DNA of 64,000 nucleotides from contig NZ_BLXX01000001.1 of NCBI RefSeq assembly GCF_014193515.1, forward strand, positions 558,001 through 622,000, written 5' to 3'. Position numbers and translations under genes: made by a program. Shown here piece by piece: positions 16,698 to 18,946 of the stretch; within the stretch, counting starts at the first letter, position 1, and every line of letters starts with the position of its first letter. Under the pieces are notes generated by a model. That model was not told where the DNA came from, did not search any database, and was given only the letters and a program-made list of their open reading frames with translations. The DNA is from Geomonas silvestris. GTDB lineage: Bacteria > Desulfobacterota > Desulfuromonadia > Geobacterales > Geobacteraceae.

Positions 16698-16859
16698 CGT
16701 GCTCCCACCCTATACGATTTCTTCCGGGAGGGCAAGCTTCCGCCGCGGGCGACCCCACTGAGGAGCGCGGAGTTTCCCCGACTGGCTCAGGAACCGGCAG
16801 ATCTTTGGGTGGTATTACCACGTTTCGAAGGCGAATCGGATCGGGCCGGTACGGAAGAA

Positions 16860-17870
16860 GCCATCTTTCCTGGAGCAGTGAACACATTTCAGCAAAAGTT
16901 GTCACCTTTTGGTGAATATAAACAACTTTCCTCAAAATCTGCTAACTTTCTGCGAGACGTCAATAGCTTTTGGGCAAAACGTATCACCATTCACTGGAAT
17001 GGTGGCATCTTCTCCGAAGAAGTAGCAACTTTTTCAAACAAATTACAACTTTCCAGCAGAAAGTGACGACGTCCGCCCAGAAGTGGCAACTTTTCATCAG
17101 GATGTGACTACTTTCCCTCAGAAGTTGCAACACTCTCTCAAAAGTTGGAAACTTTCCTGCAGAAGTTGGAACTTTCCCTGCGGAAGTGGCAACTTTCCCT
17201 GCAGAAGTTGCAACTTTCCCTGCAGAAGTTGCAACTTTCCTGCAGAAGTTGAAACTTTCCTGCAGAAGTTGGAACTTTCCCGCAGAAGTTGCAACTTTCC
17301 CTGCAGAAGTTGGAACTTTCCCGCAGAAGTTGAAACTTTCCCTGCAGAAGTTGCAACTTTCCTGCAGAAGTTGGAACTTTCCCGCAGAAGTTGGAACTCT
17401 CCCTGCAGAAGTGGCAACTTTTCTGCAGAAGTTGGAACTTTCCCTGCGGAAGTTGAAACTTTCCTGCAGAAGTTGGAACTTTCCCGCAGAAGTTGCAACT
17501 TTCCCTGCAGAAGTTGGAACTTTCCCGCAGAAGTTGCAACTTTCCCTGCAGAAGTTGGAACTTTCCTGCAGAAGTTGGAACTTTCCTGCAGAAGTTGGAA
17601 CTTTCCTGCAGAAGTTGGAACTTTCCCTGCAGAAGTTGGAACATTCCTTGAGAAGTGACAACTTTCCGCAAGCTGTGGTTACTTTGCATGAACGATGGCA
17701 TGGATACGCCAGAAAGGTGATGCCTTTTCCGCAACAGTGACACCTCGGCAAAAAAGTGGATCTTTTAGAAAGAAGATGAAAATGTTCGGCGGGACATTGA
17801 TCTTTCTTTTGGAGAAAAGTCTTCTTTTCGGTGGGAGGTGAACTTGGGTGGGAGGTGGCATTCTTACGTG
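16860..17870. repeat. Array of about 45-50 palindromic 20/21-bp repeats
   Basis: The core (17142-17660) contains about 26 nearly identical units of the form AAGTTGGAACTTTCC(C)TGCAG, each 20 or 21 bp. Variants at the centre (TTGCAACTT, TTGGAACTT, TTGAAACTT) keep the AAGTT...AACTT dyad; the C form is a perfect palindrome. The same 20-22-bp phase continues outwards into progressively degenerate units on both sides (16860-17141 and 17660-17870). The unit has no stop codon in any of the six frames, so several long open frames run through it on both strands. Because 20- and 21-bp units alternate irregularly, no protein repeat register is maintained, so I treat it as non-coding. It lies downstream of the fibronectin III gene. 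Confidence 0.9.
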
Positions 17871-17959
17871 ACCATGAGTCGGTCAACCAAGCGAGGCGTC
17901 TTGACGATCTAGGGGAGAACCTCTCCCCCCAAATCGAGGAGAGAGGTTCGAATAGCTAA

Positions 17960-18634
17960 TCACAGAATCCGGAGGGTTACGATCTGGGACCAGGGGCTGT
18001 AATGGCCGCCGCCGTAGCAACGGACCCTGAAATGGTAGACCTCCCCAGGCTTCAAACCTGAGATTTCGAGGTTACGACAACTGTCGCCTTGCACACCATC
18101 GATCCAGGAGTTTTCATCGGTCGGGTTATCCTGGCAGTACTGGACGTAGTACATCGAGGCGTAAGCATCCCTTCCGATATTTATGAAGACTGTGCCGGAG
18201 TGCAGATCGCTGCGTGTGACTCGTACCTTGGTCGGCATCTTGACCGAACCTGCCCCGCTTGCCCTGACCTGCTTCTTCTCTTTCTTCTCTTCGAGGGGCA
18301 GATTCTCCCTGATGGAAGTTCTGTTCTCCACGACCGACTTAATCACCACCCAGTTGACGGTGGCCTCCACCAATACATCGGCCTGGGGGCGGAAAGTCTC
18401 TAACTCGGCCATCCTGAATTTGTCGCCGCCTTCTGCTGCCAGCGACAGGTTGATCATATGCTTCCCTTCCGCGCTGATTCTAACCCCATTGGCGAGCGGT
18501 GGCGGGATCGCGTCACCTTTGTGGTCCTCGTGCGACTCCAGGGACTCGCCGAAGCGCACCATCCAGTAACCGTAATCCAGGTTGGTGAGCAACCGCCAGG
18601 TTGGCTCGATCTTATCAAACAGCTTATTCACCAT
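17960..18634 (-). CDS. Fibronectin type III domain protein
   Basis: A 224-residue protein starting at the ATG 6 bases after AAGGAGG. Residues 1-110 form an unrecognised domain (LLTNLDYGYWMVRFGESLES). A Lys/Glu-rich hinge (about 112-125) leads to a fibronectin type III domain (about 140-224) with the expected LEISGLKPGEVYHFRVRCY strand pair and final SPWSQIVTLRIL. No signal peptide is visible, so it may be cytosolic or exported by another route. Function is unknown; FN3 domains usually bind proteins or polysaccharides. The repeat array lies immediately downstream. Confidence 0.8.
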   Translation of the reverse strand: MVNKLFDKIEPTWRLLTNLDYGYWMVRFGESLESHEDHKGDAIPPPLANGVRISAEGKHMINLSLAAEGGDKFRMAELETFRPQADVLVEATVNWVVIKSVVENRTSIRENLPLEEKKEKKQVRASGAGSVKMPTKVRVTRSDLHSGTVFINIGRDAYASMYYVQYCQDNPTDENSWIDGVQGDSCRNLEISGLKPGEVYHFRVRCYGGGHYSPWSQIVTLRIL

Positions 18635-18946
18635 GTTTTCCTCCTTCCCTGCGAGGCTCAGCACCTGGCAGGAGACTTAGTTAACTGGATCTAATTTATA
18701 AACGACCGGCTTCAGCTTGTAAAGGGGGGAGATGAAAAAAAATTTACAAACCCGACACCCCTGCCACTTTCCATCCCTTGCCCACCTTCGAATGTTGAAC
18801 CTGCCTAGGCGGAAGCGCCGACGGTTGCACAGAATGCCGTTGGTGCCGCTCGACACCCATGAGATAATTTTCCTTTTAAATGTGAGGCCTTTTGACCGAA
18901 ATGTGTTGTATACTACGAATCCCTATTCCACCTTCAGAGGCAGCGC
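18635..18946. other. Divergent intergenic region
   Basis: A 312-bp gap between the FN3 gene and the gene at 18947. It includes an A-rich stretch (18732-18750) and a TATACT hexamer at 18909-18914 that could be a -10 box, but no matching -35 at correct spacing. Nothing else is recognised. Confidence 0.35.

Follow-up and report, generated by a model that had tools for sequence, protein, structure and literature searches.

Small protein genes lying beside arrays of short direct repeats are known from several bacterial systems. In type II plasmid partition (e.g., pSK41 and pCW3), the ParR/parC centromere consists of direct repeats next to a gene for a small protein. Families of ParR bind only their cognate parC, repeat sequence and spacing differ between families, and ParR of pSK41 binds 20-bp repeats (PMC9426499). 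Plasmid iterons bound by Rep proteins are direct repeats of about 20-22 bp spaced by two helical turns beside the gene of the binding protein, and in type III toxin-antitoxin systems (ToxIN) a small protein gene lies next to an array of short tandem repeats. Rapidly evolving, independently arising tandem repeats have been described for Borg elements in archaea (PMC9879509), a different host. Closest to the organism studied here, multicopy direct repeats of 6-42 nt were noted in 2010 throughout the intergenic regions of Geobacter bemidjiensis, a probable close relative (PMC2996986), and probably include arrays of the kind described below; in the parts of that account consulted, however, no gene family, helical period or mechanism was named. 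Searches of openly licensed literature yielded no description of a link between such arrays and a gene family.

The locus studied here lies within a 64,000-nt stretch of the Geomonas silvestris genome (the window) and has two parts, a 1-kb array of 20/21-bp repeats and an uncharacterised protein gene whose 3' end faces it (Table 1). Genomes, contigs and loci used for comparison are denoted G, C and L, respectively, G000 being the window's genome. As in ParMRC systems, tandem direct repeats lie beside the gene. However, no ribbon-helix-helix protein was found, as domain searches gave only Fn3 (window gene) and weak unrelated matches, and no actin-like ParM gene recurred. Besides the family itself, the largest recurring cluster of neighbours is response-regulator-like (17 ORFs in 10 of 64 loci), and no cluster accompanies all or most loci. 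The arrays are also longer than parC, mostly 3' of the gene and present in many copies per chromosome, and the protein family is unrelated to ParR by the searches made. In contrast to iterons, no Rep or winged-helix match was obtained and the loci are chromosomal, with many copies per genome. With respect to ToxIN, no toxin domain and no ToxN-like endoribonuclease was found, and the arrays are mostly 3' and often beyond a terminator. The units abut without the unique spacers of a CRISPR array, and no Y1 transposase, as expected for REP/BIME elements with RAYT, was detected in the genes flanking the window array or in the family proteins tested. In addition, no support was found for a defence, phage or plasmid origin.

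Table 1. Location of the features at the window locus and of further arrays mentioned in the text.
Position	Strand	Feature	Support
17162..17672	.	homogenised core of the array, 25 units of 20/21 bp, dyad AAGTTGNAACTT	Tandem Repeats Finder, unit search of the genome, unit chain
16854..17161	.	left decayed units in the same phase (about 15)	extension score 52, null maximum 6
17673..17854	.	right decayed units in the same phase (about 9)	extension score 22, null maximum 10
17855..17959	-	spacer between the gene's stop codon and the array; short hairpin but no T-run terminator in our scan (dG -2.7), unlike most other members	terminator scan
17960..18664	-	array-associated family gene (long form, F2): N-domain of unknown fold, basic linker, C-terminal fibronectin-III domain; GTG at 18664 or ATG at 18634	Pfam fn3 E=1.2e-6, above its cut-off; family comparison; array association
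G000:C12:67169-67809 (L022; C12:67249-67789 is 68%-similar to the window array)		second large array in the window's genome, 82-bp higher-order unit (4 x 20.5), without a family gene; ends next to a terminator-like hairpin	
L183:4300-4707 (G015)		two further degenerate 21-bp and 63-bp arrays following the first at this locus	
L283:4325-5069 (G021:C1:2264325-2265069)		17-copy array of 43 bp (P 21.5), no family gene near	

An earlier note, made from the sequence alone, had described an array of palindromic 20/21-bp repeats decaying from centre to edges, and this observation was confirmed. Tandem Repeats Finder reported 17110-17667 with periods of 41, 61 and 102, i.e., 2, 3 and 5 units of about 20.4 bp, and harmonic analysis gave a mean period of 20.44 bp. 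A unit chain scored against GAAGTTGNAACTTTCC identified 25 consecutive units (starts 17162-17652) matching at least 13 of 15 positions and spaced 20 or 21 bp. The phase continued into the left (unit scores 7-13) and right (5-11) flanks well beyond the maxima reached in 500 dinucleotide shuffles of the flanks. All 23 matches of the unit (up to 1 mismatch) in the 5.1-Mb genome lie in this array. The dyad is real, as the array aligned to its own reverse complement at 70% identity over 467 bp. A graded fall of identity was also observed as a mean over 26 other 21-bp arrays, with 0.84 at the centre, 0.70-0.76 at three quarters of the half-length and about 0.27 outside. The open frames are a by-product, as the note had stated: every frame of 16860-17870 holds 3-8 stops and the period is not a multiple of 3, so that a coding repeat was rejected for the window array. 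For the 21.0-bp arrays coding is not excluded array by array; 11 of 74 arrays have no open frame over half their length.

The interpretation given in the earlier note was only partly supported. The homogenised centre with decayed edges, the non-coding nature, the dyad, length differences between orthologues and the constant two-turn phasing all held, and binding of a dimeric protein remains plausible on sequence alone. However, nothing found supported the suggested role in phase variation. The statement that all sites lie on one face of the helix is exact only for the 21.0-bp arrays; at 20.0-20.6 bp the sites would precess slowly around the helix, as inferred from 10.5 bp per turn. The conserved partner that the note had proposed to look for does exist, but had been missed: it is the adjacent gene, one of a multi-copy family whose other members nearly all have an array of their own.

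To determine how widely such arrays occur, related genomes were searched. Apart from the second array in the window's genome, weaker matches to the window array were present in one relative. A pattern of three AACTT at two-turn spacing hit 17 of 19 genomes of the genus, with 333 matches in total against 62 for the reversed control pattern, and the matches clustered in arrays whose units differ between loci. At one locus with orthologous flanks (79-98% protein identity), five species each carry an array of about 21 bp with diverged units. A collection-wide scan for AACTT arrays returned at least 119 stretches in many phyla, a raw count which says nothing on taxonomic range. All-against-all comparison of the genes flanking 43 arrays revealed one family of about 130 residues facing nine different arrays with its 3' end. 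Iterated profile searches within the fetched loci joined this short form, through the N-terminal domain, to the longer form to which the window gene belongs. The short form occurs in 19 of 19 genomes of the genus (2-6 matches each, some of the weaker being long-form genes). The long form occurs in 19 of 19 (7-14 each), in G006 (20), G038 (2), G036 (1) and, borderline, G033 (1), and in none of the other 25 of 48 family genomes. A search of 395 genomes of the phylum with the long-form alignment, in which at most 7 candidates per genome were scored, returned only the window's own genome and one 40-residue match in the Fn3 range. The open frame of the nearest relative of the window gene (L245, in G020) is about 410-485 codons long, with about 190 extra N-terminal residues that may result from a wrong start.

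To quantify the association, Tandem Repeats Finder with any period up to 120 bp was run on 1.2 kb each side of 83 distinct family genes (30 short form, 53 long form) remaining after identical loci were merged. These were the best matches listed by the searches plus 20 fetched loci and not a random sample; matches to the Fn3 part alone were excluded, and five secreted Fn3 proteins were removed from the profile. An array of at least 90 bp with a period of 20.5 +- 0.75, or a multiple up to 5, was present 3' in 65 of 80 genes with at least 500 nt of flank (L239, L267 and L314 had less), but 5' in only 5 of 82 with enough flank. Of the 15 misses, two have 120 = 6 x 20 bp 3' (L254, L256), six have the array 5' (L228, L230, L328, L330, L333, L335; L328 has a short 5' flank), one has short arrays 3' (L332), and in six none was found (L252, L322, L325, L329, L331, L341), L325 showing only a faint signal. 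Thus, 74 of 80 have an array on either side. In the window's genome, 14 family loci were examined: 10 have an array (9 of them 3', one 5'), 2 have none (L341, L389) and 2 end at a contig edge. In 800 kb taken evenly from two single-contig genomes, 5 of 5 strong family genes had an array (4 at 3', L347 at 5'), although two of the five loci (L277, L292) had already appeared in earlier searches, while one weak partial match (L290) had none. Of 8 arrays flagged there as two-turn, 5 adjoin a family gene and 3 lie in predicted ORFs. Array-like 21- or 84-bp signals at L287, L351 and L356 lie in predicted ORFs and were not counted as intergenic arrays. The association was also observed in two other genera: in G006, 8 of 12 examined genes have an array (9 with a weak one), 4 of them 5', and in G038 1 of 1 examined.

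The fundamental period was measured by harmonic sum and compared for 69 of 74 arrays. All 29 short-form arrays measured fell at 20.92-21.08, i.e., 21.0, although their units are dissimilar between paralogues. The long form ranged from 19.94 to 21.12, in groups such as 20.0 (L253-L256, L258, L271) and 20.5 (L246-L249, L263); the exception was L259, with a spectral period of 25.8, although Tandem Repeats Finder gave 103 = 5 x 20.6. Long-form orthologues agreed (30 pairs of high protein similarity, mean difference 0.037 bp), whereas diverged long-form paralogues did not (0.42-0.44 bp, as for the least similar large class). Mantel tests of protein similarity gave r=-0.40 against period difference and 0.28 against array k-mers (both p=0.002). 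Constancy within the short form is what goes beyond common descent of the array. With columns permuted within the unit, 26 of 45 arrays, only those with integer period being tested, had more self-complementarity than 95% of permutations (mean z 2.18; orthologues among them are not independent), while 19 showed no significant dyad.

As the arrays are tandem units of changing length, a neutral minisatellite was considered, in which slippage and unequal exchange expand any short repeat in non-essential 3' intergenic DNA and the gene is a passenger or merely sits in a tolerant place. Orthologous arrays differ in length, e.g., 341-491 bp in five orthologues and 136-486 bp in another five, which together with the graded decay is what unequal exchange gives. 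Arrays also occur without the gene, and period and unit are inherited together among close orthologues, which common descent alone explains. However, the frequency of the association in the even sample and overall, its presence in G006 and G038, the period of 21.0 across short-form paralogues with dissimilar units and the enrichment of dyads render this reading unlikely. The protein is under purifying selection, with dN/dS of 0.06-0.51 in 55 within-group pairs, although several dS values are above 1 and rough.

Alternatively, the array might be transcribed, its palindromic units folding into a hairpin-rich RNA that acts on the gene's message or sequesters a partner. The window array folds far better than dinucleotide shuffles on both strands (z -6.2 and -7.4), dyads are enriched and most arrays are 3' of the gene. 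However, a repetitive palindromic array folds well for trivial reasons, as these shuffles destroy the periodicity. The stop-to-array distance has a median of 178 nt, and a hairpin with a T-run (dG below -8) lies in between in 42 of 68 loci. A strong one (dG at most -17) was present in 38 of 68, against 3 of 68 beyond the array on the same strand, indicating that many arrays lie outside the gene's transcript, although the window's own locus lacks such a terminator. Moreover, 6 arrays lie 5' of the gene, 19 of 45 arrays lack a significant dyad, and a period of 20-21 bp fits B-DNA (10.0-10.5 bp per turn) and has no obvious RNA reason, an argument which is inferred. In a search for riboswitches and known RNAs in 20 sources, only tRNAs and one c-di-GMP-I riboswitch in L327 were identified. 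An RNA-level role is considered unlikely.

A selfish or mobile module, with the array as the substrate by which the gene-array pair duplicates and inserts, could account for the many paralogous copies at different loci and for presence or absence at the same locus. In G019, secF and the 116-residue gene on one side and three genes on the other (84-97% identity) enclose 7.2 kb with neither gene nor array, where the window has about 3.0 kb with both. However, no transposase, integrase or nuclease domain was found, and close orthologues are conserved across species. Viral contigs and plasmids yielded no relatives, and phages only tail-protein matches (15 records at E<=0.01) that start no earlier than query residue 130, i.e., in the Fn3 part. 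This appears the least likely of the alternatives.

Taken together, we regard the pairing of gene and array as real with high confidence: the locus recurs with paralogous proteins and unrelated unit sequences at many places in these genomes. What comparison has demonstrated is the gene family, its near-constant association with an array of period 20-21 bp, the period shared among orthologues and fixed at 21.0 in the short-form branch, the enrichment of dyads, purifying selection on the protein and length turnover of the array. Binding of the array by its protein and everything that follows from it is inferred, and we consider it, with moderate confidence, the likeliest mechanism. In this view the protein, probably as a dimer through the N-domain (the only part shared by short and long forms), would bind one unit every two helical turns and coat its array as a regular nucleoprotein patch. 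The unit sequence would drift and be re-homogenised within a locus, while the spacing that fits neighbouring protomers would be retained. The fibronectin-III domain, where present, would be a protein-contact module. Such a patch would work like a centromere or anchor site, the nearest working analogy being ParR on parC, although the pair is not a member of that system, having no ribbon-helix-helix protein and no ParM. In favour of this view, the orthologous interval of G019 lacks both gene and array, and arrays without a family gene resemble family arrays of the same genome more than expected. Speaking against this, the domain searches revealed no recognised DNA-binding domain, no solved structure related to the N-domain was found, and a single-sequence model of it was uninformative (mean pLDDT 42.3) and too poor for a fold search. 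In addition, the association is not perfect, 27 of 43 pattern-picked arrays have no family gene within 1 kb, 19 of 45 arrays show no significant dyad, the window's own locus lacks the terminator seen elsewhere, and the period is not conserved among diverged long-form paralogues.

If this explanation is right, a set of bacterial genomes carries a dozen or more copies each of an undescribed gene family, most of them paired with a private array of two-turn repeats in which paralogues share spacing rather than sequence. This would make protein-DNA co-evolution of satellite-like arrays directly testable in a bacterium, provide a set of orthogonal array-binding proteins and explain part of the intergenic repeats reported in 2010. 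A more far-reaching and rather doubtful possibility is a chromosomal system of many mutually orthogonal protein-array pairs in one genome, each paralogue building its own phased nucleoprotein array whose pitch is set by the protein while the DNA letters are free to drift together with it. It would be a natural library of centromere-like or anchoring sites and a bacterial parallel to satellite DNA co-evolving with its binding proteins.

The arrays might instead be bound by another, unlinked host protein, such as a nucleoid protein of HU/IHF kind, while the family protein does something else. Putative IHF/HU sites have been proposed for repeats in G. metallireducens (PMC2700814), gene-free arrays exist, and an AT-rich patch occurs once per unit (z 0.97 +- 0.17). 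It does not occur twice (z -0.02), so that curvature from an A-tract every turn was rejected. However, an unlinked protein does not explain why the arrays accompany this family, nor why the period follows the protein branch, and this possibility is considered improbable. Of 43 arrays picked by the AACTT pattern, 27 have no family gene within 1 kb; of the 25 with both flanks, 9 lie between convergent, 13 between tandem and 3 between divergent genes. For 25 of the 27 (L207, probably the other end of L239's array across a contig break, and L213 were left out), k-mer similarity to family arrays of the same genome, 60 family arrays being used, exceeded label permutations (0.132 against 0.097, p=0.0002), and the best match was in the same genome in 5 of 25 against 1.4 expected. 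These arrays were chosen for AACTT, however, and orthologous loci among them are not independent. The second array of the window's genome is most like the window array (0.38). These results fit a protein acting also in trans, or dispersal of arrays within a genome. Contigs break at or beside arrays at the end of G024:C3 and the start of C21, the starts of G000:C7 and C29 and the ends of G027:C275 and C291, so copy numbers in short-read assemblies are probably unreliable. The same convergent intergenic locus in five species (L023, L192, L198, L204, L210) holds an array of about 21 bp with a different unit each time and no family gene, and the ORF neighbouring the gene-free array at L283 resembles, by appearance only, a superoxide dismutase.
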